Origin: Chlorobiota bacterium
GTDB taxonomy: Bacteria > Bacteroidota > Ignavibacteria > Kapaibacteriales > UBA961
Length of the DNA: 56,696 nucleotides
Direction: 5' to 3'
Assembly (NCBI GenBank): GCA_014191195.1
Contig: BJGZ01000014.1
Coordinates: forward strand, 1 to 56,696
Program-made: the position numbers and the translations under genes
Part shown: piece by piece, positions 7,088 to 48,768 of the stretch
How positions within the stretch are numbered: the stretch's first letter is position 1
How the letters are laid out: the number at the start of each line of letters is the position of its first letter
Notes under the pieces: generated by a model
Database searches by the model: none
Told to the model about the DNA's origin: nothing
The model's input: only the letters and a program-made list of their open reading frames with translations

Positions 7088-7192
7088 ATATAGTTATTCC
7101 CGATGAGAAAAGTGTCTGGCAAAAATACAAAAAAATGACGCTTTAATAATCTAAAAACATTCTCAATTTCAATTATTTTAGACTAAAAAAAT

Positions 7193-8152
7193 ATGATTGA
7201 ACATCTTATTAAAAAAGTAGATATACTTTCTGTTTTTGCTCCATGTAAAGACCTATTGGATAAAAGATTTGGTGATATTCTTAAGCAGTATTCAGACAAC
7301 ACTGAAATTTCAAAGAATACCATTGCGATTTTAGGTGTTCCTCAAGATCTTGGTGTTATTCGAAATGGAGGGCGTCCGGGTGCAGCTTTAGGCCCTGAAG
7401 CAATCAGAAAAGCTTTATATAAACTTACTGTTCACGGCTTATCAAAGCAATTAGATCACATAGATATTATTGATATCGGAGATATTGATTGCGAAGGAGA
7501 AACTCTTGAATCTATACGAGAAAAACACTATGCTGTTGCAAGAGAGATATTAGAATCTGGAGCTAAGTTGATAGTAATTGGGGGTGGGCACGATTGTGCT
7601 TATCCAGATGCAAAAGCACTGAATTCTGTATCAGAATCGATAAGTGTTATCAATGTAGATCCACATCTAGATATTCGTGATTTAATTGAAGGAAAGGCTC
7701 ATTCTGGAAGTCCATTTAGAGAAATTCAAACAGCATTATCTCCTGCATTTTTGCATGAATTTGGCATACAGGAATTTTCTGTTTCTACTCATCATGTAGA
7801 ATATGCACAACAATGTTCAATAGGAATATCTTGGTATTCTGATTTACGATATAGAAATTCAATTAATCAAGATTTTTTGGAAATCATGCTATTAGGAAAA
7901 AGAAGTTCTAACAATGTATTTGTTTCATTCGATACTGATTCAATTTCTTCTGCATATGCCCCAGGAGTAAGTGCACCAGGGGCAATTGGTTTTACATCAG
8001 ATGAAATTATTGGAATGAGTTATTTAGCAGCATCCAATAATGCTACGGTAATAGACTTTGTTGAAATGAATCCACAATATGATCAAGATGGAAGAACAGC
8101 AAAGATTATCGCATTGTGTATTGCAATGGCAATTAAGGGTTGGTTAGAATAA
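7193..8152 (+). CDS. Ureohydrolase (arginase/agmatinase/formimidoylglutamase family)
   Basis: This 319-residue Mn-dependent hydrolase has the metal ligands in order: GGGHDCAYP, NVDPHLDIRD (DxHxD) and VSFDTDSI (DxD). The opening segment reads GVPQDLGVIRNGGRPGAALGPEAIR, and SAPGAIGFT follows the last metal motif. The family hydrolyses guanidino or formimino groups. Comparison by memory favours the formimidoylglutamase (HutG)-like branch of Bacteroidota, but no other hut genes are nearby, so the substrate is open. It overlaps the convergent membrane protein gene by 9 bases at the 3' end. Confidence 0.85.
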   Translation: MIEHLIKKVDILSVFAPCKDLLDKRFGDILKQYSDNTEISKNTIAILGVPQDLGVIRNGGRPGAALGPEAIRKALYKLTVHGLSKQLDHIDIIDIGDIDCEGETLESIREKHYAVAREILESGAKLIVIGGGHDCAYPDAKALNSVSESISVINVDPHLDIRDLIEGKAHSGSPFREIQTALSPAFLHEFGIQEFSVSTHHVEYAQQCSIGISWYSDLRYRNSINQDFLEIMLLGKRSSNNVFVSFDTDSISSAYAPGVSAPGAIGFTSDEIIGMSYLAASNNATVIDFVEMNPQYDQDGRTAKIIALCIAMAIKGWLE

Positions 8153-19494: not shown

Positions 19495-22245
19495 ATGAAA
19501 AGACGCATTGTTACTCTTTTCGGTATTGCCGTTATTTGTGGTTTAATAACCATGCCTGTTTTGGCAAACAAAGCAGAATACAAAATTCGACATGCAATGA
19601 AAATTGCAGCTGAAAGAGCACCAGAAGTCCCATTGTTTTTGTATGCAGCTACAATCAATCCGGATGAAGATGCTTCCCAGGCTTTGAAATCGAAAAATAT
19701 CAAGATTGTTAATCTTGGTCCTGTTATTAACTCTGGTGCAGATGAATATGCTCCAACGGTTACTGCAGATGGTAAAACATTATTTTTTGTTTCGAACAGA
19801 AAGGGAAGTAAAGTAAGTAAAGAGGTAGATTATCGTGGCCCGGCATCAGATGATTTTTGGGCAGCGTCTAAAGAGGAACGTTTAGATATGTTCCCAGCTG
19901 GTTCTGTATTAAATATTGAACCAGAACCAAAAGAAAGTAAAAACACTGTTAATACCATTTTTAATGAAGGTGCAGCCTCCATTTCATCTGATGGTCAGCG
20001 TTTGATTTTTACAGCATGTGATCGCCAAGATGGATTTGGTTCTTGTGATTTGTATGAAACTACCATTGACGGGGTAAAATGGGGTAAGCCATCTAATCTA
20101 GGAAAAAATGTAAATTCAAGCTTTTGGGATTCACAACCATCTTTATCTCCAGATGGAAATAGAGTGTATTATTCCTCAAATCGTATAGGACCAAATAATA
20201 CTGAAAATGACATAAGCAATGAGAATTATGATATTTGGTATTCAGATTTTGACGAAGACAAAGGCGAGTGGTCTTTGGCAAAAAATTTGGGAAGTATTGT
20301 TAATACAGGCAAACAAGAATTAGGACCATTTATTGCTAAAGATGGTGTTACACTTTATTTTGCTTCTACTGGCCATATACCAAATCTTGGAGAAAAAGAT
20401 TTCTATTATACCACGCTTACAGATCCCGAAAAAAATATTTGGACAAAGCCTCAACCAATTCCATATCCTGGAATTAATTCAAAAGATGATGAAGAATTTA
20501 TTTCCTTCCCAGCTTCTGGTGATGTTATTTATTTCTCTTCAAATAGAAACTATGATAATGCCCAAGGTGAACAAGATATCTTTATGGCATTTGTTCCGCC
20601 ATTATCAAGAGCAGTTATTGTACGTGTTTTTGTAAATGATGAATGTACAAATGAATCAGTTCCTGCTACTGTAACTATCGAGAATTTAACTACTGGTTCA
20701 AAGAAAACAGATTCGGTTACCATCAGTAAAAAAGAATTTCAATATGTGGTTATGAATTCTGATTATGGTAAAGGTAAAGATGCTGGAAAAACTATTAAGT
20801 ATAGAATTACAGCTGAAAACTCTAATTATGGTAAAAAAGTAGAAGAAATTATTGTTACAAAGCCTGAAACTACCTATGATAATGATAAAGCAAAAGAGTC
20901 TCAAGAAGAACCACCTGTTAGAATATTATTGGGTAGGCGCCCTGTTCTTTCAGCAGAAATGGAATATTCTGATTTTATCAAACGTGCCTCTAAAAAGAAG
21001 CCTGAATTAGCTTCTTGGAAGGGATTAGTATTAGAAGAAGTTGCTACAATCGATTTGTTTCCATTATTACCATATGTTTTCTTTGATTCTACTTCTTCAA
21101 GTATTCCTAGCCGTTACAGACTATTTTCATCTTTTGACCAGACATCAGGTTTTTCTGATGAAAAAGTACAAGGTGATAAGAATGCCAAAACACCAGAAAA
21201 ATATTATGATATCTTGAATATTTATGGATATCGTCTTACTAAACATCCTAATGTAAAAGTAAAAGTTACTGGATGTAATGATGATGTTTCGGCTGGTGAA
21301 AAAGGCGATATGGCATTATCAGAAAAACGTGCTCAGGTAATATTTAATTACTTGAAAAATGTTTGGCATATATCCGAAGATCGTCTAACACTAGAAAAAA
21401 GAGGATTACCTGATGATAAAGTAGCATCTAAAACAAGTGATAAAGACCCTCAAAGTAAATTATATTCTAATGTCGAAAATCGTCGTACAGAATTATCCTT
21501 TACTGGTGATGCAGAAGACGTTTGGAATGTAATGAAGCCGTTGATAGATAGAGATCCTACTATATTTCCTTCTCCATTGTCTATGAATTTTATCATGAAT
21601 AATGGTATCGATGAGGCACTTATTGCTTCTCGCCGCATTCAAATTATGCGTAGTGATAAAGAATGGGCTACATTAAATCAAGTAGGTAAAAATGAAGCAT
21701 CGTATACATGGAATTGGAAAGATAAAACAGGTGCCGAATTAAAAGAAAGTGTTACAGAAGAAACTCCTTTTACAGCTAAACTTATCGTAAAAAGTATCAA
21801 TGGAACTGAATGTATTTCAGACCCAATTACTATAAAAGTAATGATAGTTATAAATAAGCCAGGTGTAAAAGTTGAAAAAGCTGGTGCTAAAACACGTGAA
21901 ACATATAAACTTGTTCTATTCCCATTCAATAGATATGATGCAGGCCCATTCAATGAAAGAATTCTTAAAGAATTCGTGTATACTCGAACAACACCTAAAT
22001 CTGATATAGCTATAGAAGGCCATACTGATGTTATAGGAATGTTCGAATCGAATGGTAAATTGTCTGGCAATCGTGCCAAAACAGTTGAAACAGGAATTCG
22101 TGGTGCAACAAAGAATCAATTCCAATCACTTGAATCAAAAGGTGTTGGAGAAGAACAAGAATTCTTTATTAATCAATTGCCCGAAGGACGTTTGTACAAT
22201 AGAACTGTTCAGATTAGTATCCAAACACCAATCGAAGAAGATTAG
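19495..22245 (+). CDS. PD40-repeat protein with two OmpA-like domains
   Basis: This 916-residue exported envelope protein has a Sec signal ending VLA. Residues about 75-360 hold five PD40 (WD40-like) blades: ADEYAPTVTADGKTLFFVS, ASISSDGQRLIFT, DSQPSLSPDGNRVYYSSN, GPFIAKDGVTLYFAS and EEFISFPASGDVIYFSSN. A spacer domain follows, then a first OmpA-like domain (about 525-680, LFPLLPYVFFDS...MALSEKRAQVIFNYL) and a second at the C-terminus (about 800-916, AIEGHTDVIGMFESNGKLSGNRAK). The second keeps the peptidoglycan-binding GHTD; the first is degenerate. It probably ties the outer membrane or a surface machine to the cell wall. A relative lies at 46139. An AAGG ribosome-binding site precedes the ATG and a strong terminator follows. 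Confidence 0.85.
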   Translation: MKRRIVTLFGIAVICGLITMPVLANKAEYKIRHAMKIAAERAPEVPLFLYAATINPDEDASQALKSKNIKIVNLGPVINSGADEYAPTVTADGKTLFFVSNRKGSKVSKEVDYRGPASDDFWAASKEERLDMFPAGSVLNIEPEPKESKNTVNTIFNEGAASISSDGQRLIFTACDRQDGFGSCDLYETTIDGVKWGKPSNLGKNVNSSFWDSQPSLSPDGNRVYYSSNRIGPNNTENDISNENYDIWYSDFDEDKGEWSLAKNLGSIVNTGKQELGPFIAKDGVTLYFASTGHIPNLGEKDFYYTTLTDPEKNIWTKPQPIPYPGINSKDDEEFISFPASGDVIYFSSNRNYDNAQGEQDIFMAFVPPLSRAVIVRVFVNDECTNESVPATVTIENLTTGSKKTDSVTISKKEFQYVVMNSDYGKGKDAGKTIKYRITAENSNYGKKVEEIIVTKPETTYDNDKAKESQEEPPVRILLGRRPVLSAEMEYSDFIKRASKKKPELASWKGLVLEEVATIDLFPLLPYVFFDSTSSSIPSRYRLFSSFDQTSGFSDEKVQGDKNAKTPEKYYDILNIYGYRLTKHPNVKVKVTGCNDDVSAGEKGDMALSEKRAQVIFNYLKNVWHISEDRLTLEKRGLPDDKVASKTSDKDPQSKLYSNVENRRTELSFTGDAEDVWNVMKPLIDRDPTIFPSPLSMNFIMNNGIDEALIASRRIQIMRSDKEWATLNQVGKNEASYTWNWKDKTGAELKESVTEETPFTAKLIVKSINGTECISDPITIKVMIVINKPGVKVEKAGAKTRETYKLVLFPFNRYDAGPFNERILKEFVYTRTTPKSDIAIEGHTDVIGMFESNGKLSGNRAKTVETGIRGATKNQFQSLESKGVGEEQEFFINQLPEGRLYNRTVQISIQTPIEED

Positions 22246-33721: not shown

Positions 33722-36700
33722 ATGAAACGATTGCTTTTTTCGGCAATGTTTGCATTAGTGCATGTTATTGCAAACAGTCAAATTGCAGACCCACAAATTT
33801 CTTATGGGCCAAAGATTCTATTGCAAACTGATGCTTTGCTTCAAGAAGGAAATCTTATTGAATCAAGGGAACATATAAGAACATATCTAAAAGATTTTAG
33901 TGATGGGATTTACGCAGACGAAGCTAGAATATTACAAGCAATCATTTTGAGGGAGCAAGCTGATTATTCTTATGCAGATAAGTCTTTAGCTGATTTTATA
34001 CAACAAAGAAACAATTCCAAGTTTATACCAATTGCATGGTTCGAGCGTGCAGCAATAGCATTTCATAAAGGAGATTTAGTAATTTCTATAGATTACTTTC
34101 ATCAAGCTTCAAAGAATGCTAATAATCTACTAGAGACAGATAAAAATTATTTTAAAAACATAAGTGGATCTGCAATTTATTGGCAAGGTATAGCGTATGC
34201 GAAATTAGGAAATATAGAACAATCGATAGTTTTTCTTATAGAGTGTCAAAAACTATTTCCTGATCATTCATTAGCTGATGATGCATTATATTTTAGGGCT
34301 CAATTAGCCGAAAGAGAGTTAAAATTGCAGCAATCAGGTGTTTTATATGCTGAGCTTTTAAGTAGATATCAATATAGTAATACAGTTTTAAGTTCTGCAA
34401 TTCGTGCAGCAAATGTAAAAGTAGCATTAAAAGAACCTAATGCAGCAATTGTATTCTTAGATCAAGCTCATAATATTGTACGTCGAATATCCCAAAAAGA
34501 TTCAATTGGATTGATATATGAAAATCAAGTACATTCTGAAGCATCTGATCAAGAAATACAATTTTTGCGTATAGAAGCACTTACATTATCGGGGCAATAC
34601 CAAAGTAGCCATAGTATGGCTAAAGAATTTATGCGCATATTTGCTTCTTCTTCTTTGAAACCCGAAGTATGGATGGCTGCTGGTTATAGTACACTTCAAT
34701 TAAAAGAGTATCAATTATCAGAACAATATTATCAAACAGTCATTGATTCGGTTCAAGATGATCAATCCTTGATTAAGCAAGGTGCAAAGTTATATCATGC
34801 AATAGTACTCAAGGCATTACAAAAAAGGGAAGAAGCAAAAAAAGAATTGTCATTATTAAATGCGCAAATTGGATATCCATATATATCTCAATCTTTATTA
34901 GAATATGGGCAAATCGCTTATGAAGATAAAGAATTAGAAATAGCAAAAAAAGCCTTGCAGAAAGCAGAAAGAGAAACTACCGACAAAACAGTACTTGTTA
35001 AAATTAATCTCTTACTTGGAAGTATATTTTTAGATTTAGAAATGTATGGTAAGGCAGCCAGAGAATATGCATCAGCTGAAAGAAATGCAATAATACTTTC
35101 TGATATTTCATTACCTAATAAAGAAAATATATTAGCAGAAATTAGATTGAAAAATGGAGTATCACTGCATCAAAATGAACAATATCAAGATGCTGCAATT
35201 GAACTTTCTACATTTTTAGGTGAACATAAAAGTGATATACGCAAAGATGAAGCATTGTTTTGGTTGGCTGAGTCGTATTTCAGATTAGATTTATTGAAAA
35301 ATGCCGAAGAATTTTATAATCAATTGATTTCGGATTTTCCAAAGAGCAAAAGAGTTGAAGAAAGTATGTATGCATTAGCTTGGACTTATTTTAGGACAAG
35401 AGATTTCAATAAAAGCAATACGGCTTTTTCTTCATTATTAAAGAAATATCCAGATTCACGATTTGCAGCAGAAAGTTGGGCAAGAAAGGCGGATGGATTT
35501 TATATCCAAAAACAATTTAAAGAAGCTTCTACTGCATATAAAACCGCATATAAGGCCTTACCAAATTCTGAAGAAGGGCAATATTCTGCATATCAATATG
35601 GACAAGCTTTATATAGAATAAATGATTTTGATGGGGCATTGCAAGCATTTAGGACATTTATACGATCTCATTCAAAATCATCTTTGGCTCCTTCTGCATC
35701 ATATTCATTAGGTTGGACACATTTTCAGCAAAAAAAGTATGCTGAAGCAATCGAAGATTTTAAAGATTTGATTAGCTCTTATCCATCTAGTCCATTATGT
35801 GCAAGAGCCCATTATACTATTGGGGATGCATATTATAATATGGAGCAATATGAAAAAGCAATCACTGAATATTCAATTGTTAAAAATTCATATGCTCAAT
35901 CACCATTAGCGGGCGAATCAGTTAAAAGTATTCAGTATTGTTTGGAATTTTTGGGAAGAAATCAAGAAGCAGATCAGATAGTAGATGAATTTGTAAAAGC
36001 ACATCCTGAGTCCGATGCAGCTAAAGATTTACTGATGAATAAAGGATTGAGCTTTTTTAATAGACAAAATTTTCAAAGCGCAATTAGTGAATATGAATCG
36101 TTTCTGAAGTCAAATAATGATAAAGAAAGGAATGCCGAAGCTTTGTTTTATTTAGGAAAAAGTTATGCTAGTTTAGGTGAATCTTCCAAAGCAGAATCTT
36201 CTTATAAAGATGTGTATGCATCATATCCTAAAAGTGAATTTGCACCTTTGGCATTACTTGAAATAGGATTACTCAAGCAAAAATCTCAATTACTAAGGGA
36301 TGCCGACACAGCATTTATCAAGTTAATGGATGAATTTCCGAATAGCAATTCAGCAGCTCAAGCTGGATATGAAAGAGCCCAAATTGCTGTGTCGTTTACT
36401 GATACTCTTAAATCATTACGCTTATTTACAGAAATTGCTGACAAGTTTATAAGCGCTGAATATGGAGATCAGTCAAGATATAAGATAGCTATGTACTATA
36501 GATCAAAAGGAATATTAGATAGTGCAAGAGTACATTTTGGAAAGCTTATTGATAGAATCGAAAATATTTCAATTGCAGCCGAAGCCCAATATAGAATTGG
36601 CGAATCATGGCTGAAACAAAAAGAAATAGGAAATGCAATAGAAGCATTTAATCAAGTAAGACAAAAATTTAGCAATATTGAAGATTGGTTTACATTGTCA

Positions 36701-36847
36701 TTACTCGGATTAGGGGAAAGCTATGAACAAGTAAAAAATATTGAAGCAGCAATCGAAGTCTATCAAACACTATCAACACTGAGGGCAGATGATGATTTTG
36801 GAAAAGCAGCGCAAGCAAAACTTAAGAAATATGGGAGGGCCCGATAA
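33722..36847 (+). CDS. Giant TPR-repeat exported protein
   Basis: This 1041-residue protein has a Sec signal ending VIANSQ, and nearly all of it is tetratricopeptide-type helical repeats. Clear units are IAWFERAAIAFHKGDLVISI, DEALFWLAESYFRLDLLKNA, SMYALAWTYFRTRDFNKSN, ASYSLGWTHFQQKKYAEAIE, HYTIGDAYYNMEQYEKAI and ALFYLGKSYASLGESSKAES. The repeats match Tol-Pal system/YbgF-type TPRs rather than kinase-linked ones. Large TPR proteins next to outer membrane barrels serve as periplasmic scaffolds in other FCB bacteria. It leads a five-gene run and shares one base with the next start (TAATG). Confidence 0.82.
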   Translation: MKRLLFSAMFALVHVIANSQIADPQISYGPKILLQTDALLQEGNLIESREHIRTYLKDFSDGIYADEARILQAIILREQADYSYADKSLADFIQQRNNSKFIPIAWFERAAIAFHKGDLVISIDYFHQASKNANNLLETDKNYFKNISGSAIYWQGIAYAKLGNIEQSIVFLIECQKLFPDHSLADDALYFRAQLAERELKLQQSGVLYAELLSRYQYSNTVLSSAIRAANVKVALKEPNAAIVFLDQAHNIVRRISQKDSIGLIYENQVHSEASDQEIQFLRIEALTLSGQYQSSHSMAKEFMRIFASSSLKPEVWMAAGYSTLQLKEYQLSEQYYQTVIDSVQDDQSLIKQGAKLYHAIVLKALQKREEAKKELSLLNAQIGYPYISQSLLEYGQIAYEDKELEIAKKALQKAERETTDKTVLVKINLLLGSIFLDLEMYGKAAREYASAERNAIILSDISLPNKENILAEIRLKNGVSLHQNEQYQDAAIELSTFLGEHKSDIRKDEALFWLAESYFRLDLLKNAEEFYNQLISDFPKSKRVEESMYALAWTYFRTRDFNKSNTAFSSLLKKYPDSRFAAESWARKADGFYIQKQFKEASTAYKTAYKALPNSEEGQYSAYQYGQALYRINDFDGALQAFRTFIRSHSKSSLAPSASYSLGWTHFQQKKYAEAIEDFKDLISSYPSSPLCARAHYTIGDAYYNMEQYEKAITEYSIVKNSYAQSPLAGESVKSIQYCLEFLGRNQEADQIVDEFVKAHPESDAAKDLLMNKGLSFFNRQNFQSAISEYESFLKSNNDKERNAEALFYLGKSYASLGESSKAESSYKDVYASYPKSEFAPLALLEIGLLKQKSQLLRDADTAFIKLMDEFPNSNSAAQAGYERAQIAVSFTDTLKSLRLFTEIADKFISAEYGDQSRYKIAMYYRSKGILDSARVHFGKLIDRIENISIAAEAQYRIGESWLKQKEIGNAIEAFNQVRQKFSNIEDWFTLSLLGLGESYEQVKNIEAAIEVYQTLSTLRADDDFGKAAQAKLKKYGRAR

Positions 36848-38448
36848 TGAAACTATTCATAGTATGTATGGTATTTCCTATAGTTCTCTGTGCTCAACAA
36901 CAAAGTCAAAACAATACTGTTCAACCGATTGATTTACAGGAATTTGTTATCACCGGCAAAGCTAGTGCAGAAATAAAAGGTGGAATTAAACAAAAGCCCT
37001 TGAAACCACAATCACTTAAACAAACAGAATTAGATTCAATAAATACAAATGAAAAAATACCAGCACCTTTATTGTCAGTGTTAACATTACCAATAAGTAC
37101 ATTCAAAAAAAATATATCGATAACCTCTGTTCAAGCTGAAATCGGCCAATTTTATACTCCAAAAATAATTGGATTATATACATTTGAAGAATTAGGATAT
37201 TCGGTAGATGCATTAGGATATTATGAAGGAAGTAAAGGGCATATTCAAAATGCTGATTATAGTAAAGTAAAGCTAGCAATTAATGCAAGTTATGATGCTC
37301 CTAAAAAGTTCGTTTTCTTTGGAGGCAGCAGAACTGAATCTTCTTTCTCGGTATTCAGAAATGGTTATTCTTTTTTTGGAATGGATTCTTCTGTAGATCG
37401 ATCAATACTAGGCCTAAAGGCACATGCACATACTAAAGGAAATTATCAGGAATATACCTACAGCACTGGTGCGGAGTGGAATATGCTTCGATGCGAAACT
37501 AATATGAAGCAAAGTAATGATTCCAGAATTATGGGATTTCTAGATATTTCAAGACCACTTGGAACTATGAATTATGGGGCTAAAGCATCAGTTGATTTAC
37601 ATTCTTTTCGAGAAAACTCATCATATAATATGATACAATTAGGTGGATATACTAAGTTTACATATATGGACATTCAATCAGATATATCCGTAGATCTTCA
37701 ATCAGCTACAAATTCTCTAGATATTTCATTAGGCGGAGTACTTATTACATATAATGCACAATATCAAATGTCTGAAGATATAACCGTTTTTGGCTTTTTA
37801 CAAAGCGGATTAAGTGCAAATTCTTTTCAAGACATAGTCCAGAATAATCCATATATCATAGATTCATCAGTAATATCATTTAGAAGAGATATCATACATG
37901 TAAAACCATCCTTCATGTATCAACCAACAGCCAAAACAAGCATACACACATCAATTGATTATAGGATCAGTTCAGATATGCCTATTTATATTCCAAATTC
38001 ATTAGAAAGAAATAATTATTCTGGATATGCAATAGAATATGTAGGTGCTCAAGTATTAACTCTTTCCTCTGAGTTATTATGGAAACCCAATGATGCTATG
38101 TCATTTAGTGGACTATGTGCTATTACAAATAGTCAATTATCAGATTTTGAGGGGTCAGTTCCATTATTGCCCTCAATGAAGGCTGGAGTTACTTGGGATA
38201 TGAAGTGGAATAATGATATTCAAAGTATATTTTCTGCAGAGTATATTGGCAAAAGATCAATTGATAAACAGTCGACAATATCCCTACCAGCATATATTAT
38301 GGTAAATGTACAATGCAATTATGCTTTGCCATATAATATGAAAGGATATATTCGATTAGATAATATATTAAATTCAAAAGTATATTTGTGGAATAGTTTT
38401 CAGGAACGTGGTATTTTTATAGCATTAGGCCTAAAATATTCCCTTTAA
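36847..38448 (+). CDS. Outer membrane beta-barrel, TonB-receptor-like without plug
   Basis: This 533-residue exported protein has a signal sequence ending LCAQQ, a short N-terminal segment LQEFVITGKASAEI that resembles the start of a TonB-dependent receptor (TonB box/plug entry), and then alternating amphipathic strands to a C-terminal strand GIFIALGLKYSL. No plug domain (about 130 residues) is visible, so it is shorter than a normal receptor. It may be a passive porin-like or TonB-coupled scaffold barrel. TAATG overlap with the TPR gene argues for joint synthesis. Confidence 0.7.
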   Translation: MKLFIVCMVFPIVLCAQQQSQNNTVQPIDLQEFVITGKASAEIKGGIKQKPLKPQSLKQTELDSINTNEKIPAPLLSVLTLPISTFKKNISITSVQAEIGQFYTPKIIGLYTFEELGYSVDALGYYEGSKGHIQNADYSKVKLAINASYDAPKKFVFFGGSRTESSFSVFRNGYSFFGMDSSVDRSILGLKAHAHTKGNYQEYTYSTGAEWNMLRCETNMKQSNDSRIMGFLDISRPLGTMNYGAKASVDLHSFRENSSYNMIQLGGYTKFTYMDIQSDISVDLQSATNSLDISLGGVLITYNAQYQMSEDITVFGFLQSGLSANSFQDIVQNNPYIIDSSVISFRRDIIHVKPSFMYQPTAKTSIHTSIDYRISSDMPIYIPNSLERNNYSGYAIEYVGAQVLTLSSELLWKPNDAMSFSGLCAITNSQLSDFEGSVPLLPSMKAGVTWDMKWNNDIQSIFSAEYIGKRSIDKQSTISLPAYIMVNVQCNYALPYNMKGYIRLDNILNSKVYLWNSFQERGIFIALGLKYSL

Positions 38449-38467
38449 TTAAACTGAATGGCTGCAT

Positions 38468-39553
38468 ATGAATGATGATATAAACCCAAATACAAATCCC
38501 GATAATTTCGGAGGATTTGATGATTCGGATGGACAAACATTTTCTGGTTCTGGTTCGTCTAAAAATTCATCCCTAGGAAAAAGTTCTATGAATTCTGAAC
38601 AAAATCAAGATAAGCCATTTTCAGGTACAATCAATTCTGAAAAAAAAGGTGGCTTTATATCATATATAAATCCAGAATCAAGTACGATGTCTGCAGATGA
38701 TCAAGCACCAAAGAATTCTGGAAATAATTGGATCAAAGTAATAGCAGCAATTTTATTGATTTCTGGGCTAATCTACTTTTTGATTCCTGATTCACCTAAA
38801 AGTCGGCCTGAAATTGTAATAGATACTACAGTGCAAACTGAAAATAATGAAGGCTCAAATCCTGATGTCGTAGAGATTGATTCTCAAGTTGTTATACTAA
38901 GAAATACAATTATTCAAGATTCTATAACAAGAGTTCAAGATTCTATAACAAGAGCAGAATTATCACAAGGCAAACCTTTAGATAATAATTCTTCCGAATC
39001 AATATCTGATAGTAAACCTGTGATTGAAGAAAAAATTCAAGAAAAACCTCAATCTCCGAAGGTTAAATCTGATAAGGGTAAAAACAATAGAATAGTACAG
39101 AAAGATGTGAAAGTTGTAGGTAAAAAGGAAGATAAAGTTAAAAATAATAGCAAAGCAGATATTATCAAACAAACTTTTTTAGACCCAGCAACACCTTCGA
39201 AAGAGAAAATTACATCTAAGATAAATTCTAAGATTGAAGAAAAATTGAGTCCTAAATCAAAGGAAATCAATAAGTCAAATAAAGACTTAATAGTCAATAA
39301 AGAGACAAAAAAGTCATCAGTTAAAGCTATTTACTCGGTACAAGTGTATGCTACTCCAAGTAAAGATGATGCAAATGAAGCATTGAAGAAGTTAAAATCT
39401 AGAGGTCAATCAAGTGCCTATATAAGTATGTATAAAAATAGAGGTACAAATTGGTATAGAGTTCGTTTTGGTGGTTTTGAAAGCAGAGAATCTGCGCAAT
39501 CTGCTGCAAAAAAAGCAGGTTATAATCAAGCATGGATAGATAGACTTGAATAA
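38468..39553 (+). CDS. SPOR-domain membrane protein
   Basis: This 361-residue protein has a cytoplasmic N-terminal region of about 85 residues (Asn/Gly/Ser-rich), a transmembrane helix (about 91-112, WIKVIAAILLISGLIYFLIP), a long Lys/Ser/Glu-rich linker, and a C-terminal SPOR domain from about 285: IYSVQVYATPSKDDANEALKK ending WYRVRFGGFESRESAQSAAK. SPOR domains bind denuded glycans at division sites, so this is probably an inner-membrane protein reaching into the periplasmic wall. The linker contains a perfect 21-base tandem duplication (38913-38954). Confidence 0.85.
   Translation: MNDDINPNTNPDNFGGFDDSDGQTFSGSGSSKNSSLGKSSMNSEQNQDKPFSGTINSEKKGGFISYINPESSTMSADDQAPKNSGNNWIKVIAAILLISGLIYFLIPDSPKSRPEIVIDTTVQTENNEGSNPDVVEIDSQVVILRNTIIQDSITRVQDSITRAELSQGKPLDNNSSESISDSKPVIEEKIQEKPQSPKVKSDKGKNNRIVQKDVKVVGKKEDKVKNNSKADIIKQTFLDPATPSKEKITSKINSKIEEKLSPKSKEINKSNKDLIVNKETKKSSVKAIYSVQVYATPSKDDANEALKKLKSRGQSSAYISMYKNRGTNWYRVRFGGFESRESAQSAAKKAGYNQAWIDRLE
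38913..38954 (+). repeat. Perfect 21-bp tandem duplication in the SPOR gene
   Basis: Two copies of a 21-base unit (38913-38933 and 38934-38954) encode QDSITR twice, separated by single residues (V, A). It lies in the low-complexity linker and keeps the frame, so copy number could vary without breaking the gene. Confidence 0.85.
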
Positions 39554-39562
39554 AAATTTCCT

Positions 39563-40321
39563 ATGAGTTATCATGCAAGAAATACTGAAAATAATGCACG
39601 TGTAAATTTTGTTTTTATGTGGGACAAATTTACAGTAAGGGGCTTTTTGTATGCATTTATTTGTATGGTGATATTATTGATAATTTTTACATTTACCAAA
39701 GTAGTAATTGATCCAATCAAGATTGAACAAATTTCGCATCCAATAATCCTTCTCAATTTGGGTGAAGGAGATGGTACTGGTAAAAGAAAAGGTAATCTAA
39801 CAGCCGAGGGTATTTCTTCATCAGGTAAAAAGCCATCTAATCCTCTAGAAGATGCTAGTAAAGATAATTCAGCATCTTCTGCAAATGATCCAACAAAAAG
39901 TAATAGCTTGATTGCGAAAGATAAAGTTTCAGAAAGTAATAAAACTGATAAGGATAGTGTATCTGGTGGTGAAAAAACAATAGGGAATGGAGCTGGTGCT
40001 GGGACTGGCCTTGGTGATAAGGGAATAGGAACTGGTGTAGGATTAGGATTAGGAGACATCGAATGGGGCGGTGGAGGTAATCGAACTGTTTTAAGTAAAG
40101 TGTTACCTAAAAGTCCTAATAAGCTTGATAGAAATGTCCAATTAAAAGTAAAGTTTACTGTATTAGCCGATGGCACAGTTGCAAATATGAAGCCAATGCA
40201 AAAAGGTGATCCATTACTTGAACAACAGTCATTAACGGCATTAAAGCGTTGGCGATTTAATAAGATAGCAGATGGTGTAGAAATGTCTGGAATAATAACA
40301 TTTAGTTTTAAAATGGATTGA
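39563..40321 (+). CDS. TonB-family energy transducer-like protein
   Basis: This 252-residue protein has a short cytoplasmic N-terminus, one transmembrane helix (about 28-48, GFLYAFICMVILLIIFTF) and a Ser/Lys/Gly-rich linker instead of the usual Pro-rich one (glycine-rich at about 140-175). The C-terminal TonB-like domain reads VQLKVKFTVLADGTVAN, LLEQQSLTALKRWRFN and GIITFSFKMD. TonB passes inner-membrane energy to outer membrane receptors. No exbB/exbD genes are nearby, so it may use others or serve the neighbouring barrel only. Confidence 0.8.
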   Translation: MSYHARNTENNARVNFVFMWDKFTVRGFLYAFICMVILLIIFTFTKVVIDPIKIEQISHPIILLNLGEGDGTGKRKGNLTAEGISSSGKKPSNPLEDASKDNSASSANDPTKSNSLIAKDKVSESNKTDKDSVSGGEKTIGNGAGAGTGLGDKGIGTGVGLGLGDIEWGGGGNRTVLSKVLPKSPNKLDRNVQLKVKFTVLADGTVANMKPMQKGDPLLEQQSLTALKRWRFNKIADGVEMSGIITFSFKMD

Positions 40322-40329
40322 AAGTATAA

Positions 40330-40515
40330 ATGGAACAGATATCAAGTATATATAATTGGTTTGTATCTTTAGGAGCTTTTCCTTTACTTATCATAGCGAT
40401 TATTATTATTGTCGTACTCTTCAAGTTAGCGCGCACATTCATTAAATTTGCATTCACCATTTGTGCACTCATAATTCTCATACTTGTTATCTTAAAACTA
40501 GTGAATAATCAATAA
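40330..40515 (+). CDS. Small two-helix membrane protein
   Basis: This 61-residue protein begins 8 bases after the TonB-like gene. It has two hydrophobic segments (about 15-32 and 37-56) with a short basic turn (KLARTFIKFAF). No family is recognised. Its placement, in the same direction and close to the preceding stop, suggests co-transcription with the TPR-barrel-SPOR-TonB run. It is too short for homology inference; a true gene is likely but not certain. Confidence 0.6.
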   Translation: MEQISSIYNWFVSLGAFPLLIIAIIIIVVLFKLARTFIKFAFTICALIILILVILKLVNNQ

Positions 40516-40545: not shown

Positions 40546-41886
40546 ATGGCTCAAACAATTGGAATAATTGGAACAGGATATGTAGGACTAGTTACCGGAA
40601 CTTGTTTTGCAGAAAGTGGAAATACAGTGATATGTGTTGATGTTAATGTAGATAAAGTTAATAAGCTTAAGCTTGGTATCATGCCAATTTATGAACCTGG
40701 TTTAGAACATTTATTAGAAAGAAATATAAGTAATGGAAGATTGCATTTTACAAATGATCTTGAATATGCAACCAAATCATGTGAGATATTATTTCTTTGT
40801 TTACCAACTCCGCCTGGCGAGGATGGATCTGCAGATTTAAATTATGTTCTGGACGCTGCTAAAGATATATCTGTTTTTATCAAATCAAATAATATTAAAG
40901 AACCTAGAATATTAGTAAATAAAAGCACTGTCCCTGTGGCTACATCTGAAAGAGTTCGGGCGGTATGCCAACAATATGCTCCAGGATTTACTATAGAAAT
41001 TGTTAGTAATCCAGAATTTCTCAGAGAAGGGTTTGCAGTTGAAGATTTTATGAAACCCGATAGAGTTGTAGTGGGAACTAGCAATGCATATGCAGAAAAA
41101 GCAATGAAGGATTTATATGAACCATTTCTAAGAAGTGGTAATCCTATGTATGTGATGGACGAAAAAAGTGCAGAGATTACAAAGTATGCAGCTAATTGTT
41201 TTTTAGCTATGAGAATTTCATTTATGAATGAATTATCTGGTTATTGTGAAGCAATTGGTGCTGATATAGAAAATGTACGAATTGGAATAGGTTCTGATAC
41301 TAGAATTGGCAAAAGATTCTTATTTGCTGGTATTGGTTATGGTGGAAGCTGTTTTCCAAAAGATGTAAAAGCATTACTATATTCTACAGATTTAGTAGGA
41401 ACCCCCTTAGGTATCATACATGCAGTTGAAGCTGCTAATACATTCCAGACAGATAGATTTATTCTTAATATCATCAACCGTTTAGGAAATCTTAAAGGCA
41501 TTAAGATTGCAGTATGGGGTTTAGCTTTTAAGCCTAATACAGATGATGTAAGGGAAGCCCCTGCATATAGGATTATAGATTCATTACTGAAACAAGAAGC
41601 TAATATTCATGTTTATGATCCAGAAGCAATGCCAAATACAAAACATATATACGCGGATACTTTACATTATGGATCTAATTCATATGAAATATTAACAGAC
41701 GCGGCAGTATTAATTATTGCAACAGAATGGAATGAGTTTAGAAAGCCTGACTTTGCTTTAATGAAACATAAAATGGCAATGCCCATAATATTTGATGGAA
41801 GAAATTTATATGAGCCAAATGCTATAGCTGAATTAGGATTTGAATATCATAGTATAGGAAGAAAAATAGTCGGATCTTTACAATAA
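40546..41886 (+). CDS. ugd: UDP-glucose 6-dehydrogenase
   Basis: This 446-residue enzyme oxidises UDP-glucose to UDP-glucuronate for polysaccharide synthesis. It has an N-terminal NAD site (IGIIGTGYVGLVTGTCFAES), LCLPTPPGEDGSADL, LVNKSTVPVATSERV, FLREGFAVEDFMKPDRVVVG, the catalytic-Cys region GIGYGGSCFPKDVKALL, and WGLAFKPNTDDVREAPA. A UDP-N-acetyl-hexosamine dehydrogenase is less likely given the motifs. The next gene encodes a glycosyltransferase, so these two may serve an exopolysaccharide. Confidence 0.93.
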   Translation: MAQTIGIIGTGYVGLVTGTCFAESGNTVICVDVNVDKVNKLKLGIMPIYEPGLEHLLERNISNGRLHFTNDLEYATKSCEILFLCLPTPPGEDGSADLNYVLDAAKDISVFIKSNNIKEPRILVNKSTVPVATSERVRAVCQQYAPGFTIEIVSNPEFLREGFAVEDFMKPDRVVVGTSNAYAEKAMKDLYEPFLRSGNPMYVMDEKSAEITKYAANCFLAMRISFMNELSGYCEAIGADIENVRIGIGSDTRIGKRFLFAGIGYGGSCFPKDVKALLYSTDLVGTPLGIIHAVEAANTFQTDRFILNIINRLGNLKGIKIAVWGLAFKPNTDDVREAPAYRIIDSLLKQEANIHVYDPEAMPNTKHIYADTLHYGSNSYEILTDAAVLIIATEWNEFRKPDFALMKHKMAMPIIFDGRNLYEPNAIAELGFEYHSIGRKIVGSLQ

Positions 41887-46138: not shown

Positions 46139-48277
46139 CTAGTGTATTGGTGTTTCAATTTGAATTTGAACTGTTCTTGAATAACTTCTGCCTTGGGGAG
46201 AATCATTATTATATAAAAGGATATTACTACCCATAGGAATTATATCAGTTCTTGAATCAGGTATATCTAACTTTTTTTGTACTTCTAGACATCTTTTTTT
46301 AGTTAATTCTTGATTATAAAGTTTCTCACCTGTGATATCTGCATACCCTGTTATTATTACCTTTGAATTAGGCGAAATAAATGATTTAATAGTATTAATA
46401 ATCTCTACATTCTTTTTATCTAATTCAGCACTATTATGATCAAAAAGCAATAAGGAAAATTTATCAATTTTCTTGTCATCTTTAAATTCTTCTCTTTTCT
46501 TTTTAATAGTAAGTTGTTGTAATGTAATCTCTTTTTCAATGGTTTGCTCATTTCCATTTGTATCTACAGCATGAAGTTTTACCTTAATCGGTTCCTCGGT
46601 TACAATAGATTTATTTACAGGTATATCCCATAAATAAGGTTGATTCGGGATTTTACCTGTACCTTTATACATTTGAAATACAATACCATTTTGCATGATA
46701 GATACATCCCACGATGCTAATGAATCTGATGAAGTTTCTATGGGATTAATCTCTAATGATGGAGGATTTGCCGATATCTCAATTGTTTTTTTAATGATTG
46801 GTTTTATAAGGGATAATGAATTTGATTCAATTTCTACTCGACTATTTTCAGCTTGTCCTAATGGATTTGTATTGCTAGAGGGCTTCTTAGGTAAATTTCC
46901 AATTACTTTATTAATTCTGGAATTAGGTATTGACCATGTATTATGTAAATACTTTGCTACTTCATTGGCTCTTTTTTCACTGATTCCTTCAATTGTATCT
47001 TTACCTGAAGTATTATTATTTCCTATGATCAATACAGATCCTTTTTCAGCTTGCATTCTAAATCCAATAATATTTAACATGTCTTTGTAAATATTCAATG
47101 TCGATGAGGAAATATTCTTCTCACTAAACGCTTTGGATTCAGCACTATTTAATACATGTTGAGCAGTTGATGATAATTCATATTCACCTTCATTAAAAAA
47201 CACATAAGGCAGTAAAGGAAAAGTTTCTGTTGTTTCAATTTCTTCGATCTGAATAGTTGGGTCTTTTGTACGATTACCTTTTTTGTCTATTCCAGAGGTT
47301 TGCATAGATAATGAAAGTGCCTTTTTAGCTTTGATGATGGGAATTTCTTTGATGTATGATTCCGACATATATATAGTTTGAATGATGGTATTGTCTATTA
47401 CTTTTTCCTTTATTTCTGTAGATTTACGATCAATTCTATGCTGAATATTTGTAATACCTGATATCTGATGAATAATAGTATCTCTTTGATAGATAGTATC
47501 TTTTATGTACAATTTTTCTTTTGTAGGAAGAACACCACTTTTGAATGATAAGCCTAATTGTAGTGTATTCACTTTCCAATCTAAGGTGCTTAAAGAAATA
47601 AATGGTAAATGATAAGAGATATAAGGAGAAATAAACATATGATGAGAAATTGGCAGATCATAACTCAGACCAATATCACCACTTAATAGAATCTGTGAAT
47701 ATTCTGGGATTATTCCATTTGCTTCATTTCTTACTCTTTTTGCATCTAAAAATGTGGCATTTGATGGACTAATGAGTGTTTCTTTTTGTTCGAAATTTGC
47801 ACTCATTACATAATATGCACCAACTGAAGCAGATACGAATAATGAATTACTTATTTGATAAAGTAGGGAAGGCTGAATATGTATTTGTAATAAGTTCGCA
47901 ATAATTGAATGTTCTACAGTAATTGGGGCGCCAATTGTATCAAAAGGAGCATTGGGATTTCTAATAAATTGGAACCCGATATTTTCATTAGATAATAAAG
48001 TGCCACTGGGATTATGAATACCTATTCTAAGGCCTGCATACAATGCATTATTAAGTGGAATTTGCAAAAGACCACCTATTGCATAACCTAAACCAGTTCC
48101 ATTCTCAAATTGTAAGCAACAATTTGGATAACCTTGTAATTCTTTAAAATTAGCATTATGAGTATTCATGTTAATACCAGCATAAGCACCCCAATACCAG
48201 GATGGTTTATCTTGAGCATCAACTCGATAACATTGTATTAAAGCTAAAAGTAAGATTATTATTGTAATATGTTTCAT
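46139..48277 (-). CDS. Beta-barrel/OmpA-like protein with two OmpA-like domains
   Basis: This protein of about 712 residues has a Sec signal ending VDAQ. The N-terminal half (about 25-255) looks like an outer membrane beta-barrel (YWGAYAGINMNT...PYISYHLPFISLS). Two OmpA-like domains follow: a diverged one at about 345-485 (TFPLLPYVFFNEGEYELSS, then SEKRANEVAKYLHNTW) and a clearer one at about 600-712 (SNSKVIITGYADITGEKLYNQELTKKR). The same order, with the shared FPLLPYVFF block and ending TVQIQIETPI, occurs in the protein at 19495. Likely a wall-binding outer membrane anchor. It ends the minus-strand thioesterase-threonine aldolase-DUF4835 group. Confidence 0.75.
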   Translation of the reverse strand: MKHITIIILLLALIQCYRVDAQDKPSWYWGAYAGINMNTHNANFKELQGYPNCCLQFENGTGLGYAIGGLLQIPLNNALYAGLRIGIHNPSGTLLSNENIGFQFIRNPNAPFDTIGAPITVEHSIIANLLQIHIQPSLLYQISNSLFVSASVGAYYVMSANFEQKETLISPSNATFLDAKRVRNEANGIIPEYSQILLSGDIGLSYDLPISHHMFISPYISYHLPFISLSTLDWKVNTLQLGLSFKSGVLPTKEKLYIKDTIYQRDTIIHQISGITNIQHRIDRKSTEIKEKVIDNTIIQTIYMSESYIKEIPIIKAKKALSLSMQTSGIDKKGNRTKDPTIQIEEIETTETFPLLPYVFFNEGEYELSSTAQHVLNSAESKAFSEKNISSSTLNIYKDMLNIIGFRMQAEKGSVLIIGNNNTSGKDTIEGISEKRANEVAKYLHNTWSIPNSRINKVIGNLPKKPSSNTNPLGQAENSRVEIESNSLSLIKPIIKKTIEISANPPSLEINPIETSSDSLASWDVSIMQNGIVFQMYKGTGKIPNQPYLWDIPVNKSIVTEEPIKVKLHAVDTNGNEQTIEKEITLQQLTIKKKREEFKDDKKIDKFSLLLFDHNSAELDKKNVEIINTIKSFISPNSKVIITGYADITGEKLYNQELTKKRCLEVQKKLDIPDSRTDIIPMGSNILLYNNDSPQGRSYSRTVQIQIETPIH

Positions 48278-48297
48278 GTGCAATGAACTATAAGTAT

Positions 48298-48768
48298 TTA
48301 TTGTAAAACAGCATAATCTTCATAATCTACAACTAATCTTCTATAATCATCATGTATTCTTTCGGGTGCATTTGTGATCGGATTAAGATTAACTAGAACA
48401 CCAGTTGCTTGTACAATTAATTTATTTTCTGGATAGGATAGAATGATTTGATCAAAAATGAGAGAAGAATTATGGATTTCTGAAACTCTTGTTAGAATGA
48501 TATATGATTGATCAAACTGAACTGGTGAAACATAAGTAATTTCATTTTTTGCGACAACAAATCGGTCTTTTGTAATGAATGTTTCGGAGTCAATAGATAT
48601 TCCAATAGACCTAAAATATTCAATTCTAGATTCTTCCAGCCAGTATATATATACGGCATTATGAACAATATTTTGCCTATCAACTTCGAAGCTTTTTACT
48701 TTTCCAGTCAAACGATGTTTATATCTAGTACTATCAATTGTATGTTTATGATGTTGTAATTGTTTCAT
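48298..48768 (-). CDS. Acyl-CoA thioesterase (4-hydroxybenzoyl-CoA thioesterase fold)
   Basis: This 156-residue hotdog-fold protein has the YbgC-like active region FEVDRQNIVHNAVYIYWLEESR, with the catalytic Asp in the VD position, and a later strand LIVQATGVLVNL. Such enzymes hydrolyse acyl-CoA or acyl-ACP; the chain specificity is unknown. It lies between threonine aldolase and the OmpA-like gene on the minus strand, 20 bases from the latter. Confidence 0.8.
   Translation of the reverse strand: MKQLQHHKHTIDSTRYKHRLTGKVKSFEVDRQNIVHNAVYIYWLEESRIEYFRSIGISIDSETFITKDRFVVAKNEITYVSPVQFDQSYIILTRVSEIHNSSLIFDQIILSYPENKLIVQATGVLVNLNPITNAPERIHDDYRRLVVDYEDYAVLQ

Follow-up and report, generated by a model that had tools for sequence, protein, structure and literature searches.

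The known systems closest to the locus reported here include Tol-Pal, made up of TolQ, TolR, TolA, TolB, Pal and CpoB, and the Glt/Agl gliding machine of Myxococcus, in which TPR proteins, TonB-like transducers, barrels and a TolQR-type motor are joined in one machine; to our knowledge the latter includes neither SPOR proteins nor a barrel of receptor type. Septal glycans are the ligands of SPOR domains. The available text of a 2025 paper (PMC12204202) describes Bacteroidetes as having no identifiable tol-pal loci and proposes PorE as the tether. The operon described below is undescribed in the literature that we searched, where we found no account of it, none of CCDC81 with SPOR as this system, and none coming from essentiality data.

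The window (the whole stretch of DNA analysed, 56,696 nucleotides) is an entire contig of a 2.4 Mb genome. We infer its order to be Candidatus Kapabacteria, as its CTP synthase matched, among others, Kapabacteria and Ignavibacteriae MAGs, two of which have ExbB or barrel coordinates identical to those of genomes G011 and G169 of the order. Five consecutive ORFs, all confirmed on the positive strand at the coordinates given here, had been predicted to form an envelope system. The first encodes a periplasmic TPR scaffold of 1041 aa (33722-36847) with a signal peptide that, inspected by eye, lacked a lipobox. The second (36847-38448, 533 aa) encodes the outer membrane barrel and overlaps the TPR stop codon as TAATG, the predicted coupling. 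It is followed by an inner-membrane SPOR protein of 361 aa (38468-39553), formed by a disordered cytosolic N-terminus, one transmembrane (TM) helix, a linker and the SPOR domain (39332-39538; PF05036, E 6.7e-15 in the protein-level Pfam search and 1.6e-15 in the genome scan), and by a TonB/TolA-like force transducer of 252 aa (39563-40321) with one TM helix carrying T-V-R-G-F, a Gly/Ser-rich linker and a TonB C-terminal domain (40118-40312, residues 186-250; PF03544, E 5.1e-6, 27.3 bits over a cut-off of 24.6). The last is a two-helix membrane peptide of 61 aa (40330-40515) that had no significant Pfam match. A scan for sigma-70 promoters and terminators found sites no commoner than in shuffled sequences.

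The barrel matched no Pfam family and had no Plug match. Its AlphaFold2 model (pLDDT 84) presented 22 strands, by our count, over residues 93-532, and an N-terminus disordered to about residue 90. The best PDB match in Foldseek was BtuB (E 4.7e-17), and the PDB matches shown were TonB-dependent receptors. In VIA-align it was superimposed on FhuA with Z 24.6, the model from residue 88 aligning mostly to receptor residues located after the plug, and a Pedobacter homologue gave a similar model (pLDDT 77, Z 21.1). The fold predicted is that of a barrel without plug, as the original prediction had it, and of TonB-receptor type, which that prediction had not stated. Residues 27-73 (36925-37065), largely of low pLDDT, had a mean majority fraction of 0.55, against 0.35-0.45 over most of the barrel. 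Since this segment is as conserved as the C-terminal 33 residues, it appears to be a binding segment, and its sequence suggests a TonB-box-like candidate docking peptide. Within the order, Candidatus Kapabacteria, it reads PLELPExVIxG...ELDSLNxLEK, and class relatives carry a related motif.

A 22-strand receptor barrel linked to TonB and ExbBD might also serve energised transport or export, with the barrel as conduit, the TPR protein as gate, TonB/ExbBD as drive and the SPOR protein merely as wall anchor; the 22 Plug-domain matches in the genome indicate that receptor-type transport is well used in this bacterium. Without a plug, however, no known TonB-gated mechanism applies, the operon is accompanied neither by a substrate-binding partner nor by a variable cargo gene, and the barrel is usually present as one full-length copy per genome, next to its wall-binding SPOR partner. 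We consider transport unlikely, though it is the alternative that survives best; the barrel is, judging from its model, a TonB-receptor barrel without its plug, in a probably non-transport role.

Many Pfam TPR models matched the TPR protein. It scored 279.7 bits with the CpoB/YbgF-like model TIGR02795 (cut-off 90.1) over ten repeats, a score inflated by the repeats, and 120.9 bits with BamD/YfiO (cut-off 81.4), again over many repeats. Membership in the type IX secretion system as PorW/SprE was rejected, the equivalog score being 80.5 bits with a cut-off of 250. The BamD/YfiO score, the pairing of a barrel with a large TPR protein and the broad conservation of both would also fit a wall or outer membrane assembly machine, inserting envelope proteins or lipids or exporting them to the surface, in which TPR and barrel form the assembly module and division has no part. 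This seems to us improbable: the TPR scores grow with repeat number, the structural matches of the barrel are receptors, and both the SPOR domain and an ftsK gene near one operon (see below) point to the septum.

A homologue of the barrel was present in 40 of 41 genomes, its own included. We read the gene order around the barrel in 90 loci, all of them picked by their barrel match: 37 in the order, 23 in the rest of the class and 30 further out. In the order, TPR was found in 34 loci, SPOR in 35, TonB in 31, and ExbB and ExbD in none; in the class, TPR in 23, SPOR in 20, TonB in 19, and ExbB and ExbD in 15 each; further out, TPR in 23, SPOR in 19, TonB in 13, ExbB in 20 and ExbD in 17. Wherever it was found, the TPR gene lay upstream of the barrel (34/37, 23/23 and 23/30 loci), and it was within 8 kb of it in 29 of 32 loci in the rest of the order, 23 of 23 in the class and 23 of 30 further out. 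As a control, the upstream neighbours in the window (MBL, Rieske, QueG and pirin genes) kept such proximity only within the genus. The linkage thus exceeds chance, and the expectation that the TPR-barrel pair is common in Bacteroidota was borne out in the order, in the class and beyond. All six genes, in the arrangement TPR-barrel-SPOR-ExbB-ExbD-TonB, were found in Pedobacter psychroterrae, Albibacterium bauzanense, Cytophagaceae ECT2AJA-110-C and a Melioribacteraceae MAG, and Calditrichaeota J042 carried TPR-barrel-ExbB-ExbD. The set is not always complete, because Bacteroidia-type loci often held TPR and barrel alone and Balneolaceae-type loci had no TPR gene. In three loci of one family (f8: L132, L135 and L141) a protein of about 900 aa with 7-8 hydrophobic segments occupied the place of the TPR gene just upstream of the barrel. 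By gene order, then, the TPR, barrel, SPOR and TonB-like genes are one operon kept across Candidatus Kapabacteria and much of Bacteroidota.

The partial sets could be taken to mean that there is no single machine, only unrelated envelope genes held together by expression or dosage; we find this very unlikely, given that across the phylum this gene set reappears with its order kept and its neighbours exchanged, and that the operon TonB is a lineage of its own. The two-helix peptide, counted in the original prediction as a fifth member, proved to be an accessory of the order: a similar peptide with two TM helices directly followed TonB in 18 of 27 loci there and in 0 of 24 outside. The same limitation holds for the UDP-glucose dehydrogenase (40546-41886, positive strand), which is operon-linked in 22 of 37 loci in the order and in none outside, and is probably not part of the machine. 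We give hardly any credit to an exopolysaccharide secretion module of the TPR plus barrel type (AlgK/AlgE, PelB, PgaA, BcsC), in spite of this dehydrogenase and of a family-2 glycosyltransferase downstream in the window, and rejected membership in AlgK/AlgE-type export, as the predicted strands are 22 of receptor fold and not 16-18, the glycosyltransferase link is limited to the genus save for one distant locus, the dehydrogenase link is restricted as described, and TonB, ExbBD and SPOR would be left unexplained.

From a TonB-like coupler beside a barrel and a wall-binding protein, an energised assembly had been predicted. Relatives whose operon includes ExbB and ExbD support energisation, but in the whole order the motor genes are gone from the operon; judged from gene content, Kapabacteria have lost the dedicated ExbB/ExbD genes. 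The window's genome had one ExbB, on another contig, in an ExbB-ExbD-ExbD-TonB cluster. A tree built from the TonB C-terminal domains, which offer few columns, separated the operon lineage from the housekeeping TonBs at 100/100. The TM histidine was present in 17 of 24 operon TonBs outside the order versus 3 of 27 inside, and among housekeeping TonBs in 8 of 8 outside versus 0 of 18 inside. The motor-docking motif SxxxH occurred in 17 of 24 operon TonBs outside the order and in 4 of 27 inside, and was absent from the TM helix of the window's operon TonB. The order has instead T-x-[RK]-[GAS]-[FLYW] in both lineages (17 of 27 operon and 15 of 18 housekeeping TonBs), which outside was found in 0 of 24 and 0 of 8, respectively. 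We rejected the loss of SxxxH as proof of an uncoupled transducer: the housekeeping TonBs of the order also lack it, and so do some operon TonBs adjoining ExbBD, the sphingobacterial ones included, so that loss of the histidine is no mark of a lost motor. As no other ExbB was found in the window's genome, a powered operon transducer must use the housekeeping motor, and the shared TM motif fits; the two TonBs of this genome probably share one motor.

Some loci outside this pattern deserve mention. Three operons outside the order (L168, L169 and L274) also had no ExbBD; in the first two the N-terminus of the operon TonB reads YGAxEL, like that of housekeeping TonBs, and motor sharing may extend to these cases. 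The ExbB/ExbD-type pair of L161 scored below the TolQ/TolR cut-offs. In L147, an ORF (7099-8046) near the housekeeping ExbBDD-TonB cluster encodes a protein with repeats resembling TPR and, in addition, a second TonB_C domain.

The SPOR proteins of the order share a cytosolic N-terminal end that looks disordered and carries a conserved GGF...D..TF motif. Outside the order, the SPOR proteins of some loci bear HU-type domains at their cytosolic end (PF00216 in L161, HU-CCDC81 in L182); HU-CCDC81-SPOR proteins have reportedly been the subject of earlier work. In L178, ftsK lies three genes upstream of the barrel. The SPOR domain, this ftsK and the distribution relative to Tol-Pal are together suggestive of a role in division or growth.

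We inspected the distribution of TolB across the phylum. TolB_N was matched in 6 of 118 genomes, four of them in one genus (g65) of a family (f26) that we infer to be Chlorobiaceae, and had no match in the window's genome. One locus of this genus, L282, carries tolQ, tolR, a tolA-like gene, tolB, pal and cpoB, with TolQ, TolR, TolB, Pal and YbgF all above the NCBIfam cut-offs; L284 and L285 resemble it in layout, and L283 is cut at the contig end. Of the four genomes, two (G050 and G055) were listed without a barrel match and the other two (G107 and G125) were absent among the matches listed; a Chlorobiales MAG had no barrel match either. Weak barrel matches in this family were rejected as operon members, L196 and L286 because they carry Pfam Plug domains, L286 also adjoining a CobN-type gene, and L287 on its neighbourhood. 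The TolB_N match of G121 was likewise discarded; it sits in a frame of about 1050 aa with a kinase-like start. TolB is thus nearly absent from the sampled phylum, and the operon is missing from the single lineage of the sample in which canonical tol-pal was present, which suggests that the operon may be the phylum's substitute for Tol-Pal. The complementary distribution represents few evolutionary events, because it rests mainly on that lineage, and a TolB_N match in the control genome of Bacteroides ihuae may count against it.

There was no OmpA/Pal gene in the window's operon. Elsewhere in the window, a 916-aa protein with an OmpA-type C-terminus (19495-22245, positive strand), related to PorE/CHU_0125, scored 124.1 and 131.7 bits, both below cut-off (620 for the latter); it is a possible outer-membrane-to-wall tether, and in L177 a protein matching it is found beside the operon. 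A 714-aa protein on the negative strand (46139-48283) also had an OmpA C-terminus, several OmpA-type models matching at two places, and a YbgC/FadM-type thioesterase (48298-48768, negative strand) scored 59.7 bits with the tol-pal-associated thioesterase model (cut-off 141).

The reading that we prefer, and hold to be about evenly poised, is that the operon encodes a Tol-Pal-like trans-envelope system, driven by the proton motive force, that links the outer membrane, probably septal peptidoglycan and the inner membrane, and that replaces Tol-Pal. An ExbB-ExbD motor would drive the TonB-like transducer in the inner membrane; in Kapabacteria, this genome included, the drive would most likely come from the single housekeeping ExbBD motor. 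The C-terminal domain of the transducer would span the periplasm and engage the unstructured, conserved N-terminus of the barrel, which would act as a handle on the outer membrane and not as a transporter. The TPR protein, whose translation is coupled to that of the barrel, would dock on the barrel and relay the pull to the wall or to enzymes of division, in the manner of CpoB in Tol-Pal, and the SPOR protein would direct the assembly to septal glycans, a location where it could take part in outer membrane constriction. In some other lineages the HU domains of the SPOR proteins might reach the nucleoid. A wider proposal, more doubtful and put forward tentatively, is that Bacteroidota in general use the operon in place of Tol-Pal: one such machine, its receptor-derived handle and TPR scaffold tied to septal peptidoglycan and in some lineages, through HU-SPOR, to the nucleoid, would coordinate chromosome, wall and outer membrane at division, with Kapabacteria re-wired to the housekeeping ExbBD. 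With the dedicated motor lost and the TM motif shared with the housekeeping TonB, Kapabacteria also offer a natural experiment on how one motor might serve two transducers. For a phylum described, in the available text of PMC12204202, as having no identifiable tol-pal, the operon is a specific and widely conserved candidate, with testable parts, for outer membrane attachment during division.

Compared with TonB-dependent transporters such as BtuB and FhuA, the barrel shares the 22 strands, a receptor-like C-terminal motif, a TonB-box-like N-terminus and a TonB partner; it differs in the missing plug, and hence in having no known substrate gating, and in its linkage to TPR, SPOR and motor genes. 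For the Glt/Agl machine, membership as GltC was rejected, since the TPR protein scored only 23 bits with that model (cut-off 450). The motor-linked vWA transducers, as far as the available text of PMC12204202 describes them, are likewise TM proteins encoded, with TolQ/TolR-like motor genes, next to a TPR gene, but the operon transducer has TonB_C in place of vWA at its end, and the operon further includes a receptor barrel and a SPOR protein. PorE offers a parallel as a proposed link from outer membrane to wall in a phylum without tol-pal; the operon proteins are different, and that text neither describes the operon nor mentions SPOR. From Tol-Pal itself the operon differs in having the plug-less receptor barrel and the SPOR protein instead of TolB and Pal, a TPR protein roughly four times as long as CpoB and, in Kapabacteria, no motor genes; it resembles it in the ExbB/TolQ- and ExbD/TolR-type motor genes that relatives keep in the same operon, in a transducer made of a TM helix and a TonB/TolA-type C-terminus, in a CpoB/YbgF-like TPR protein, and in a distribution that, in our sample, is complementary to its own.
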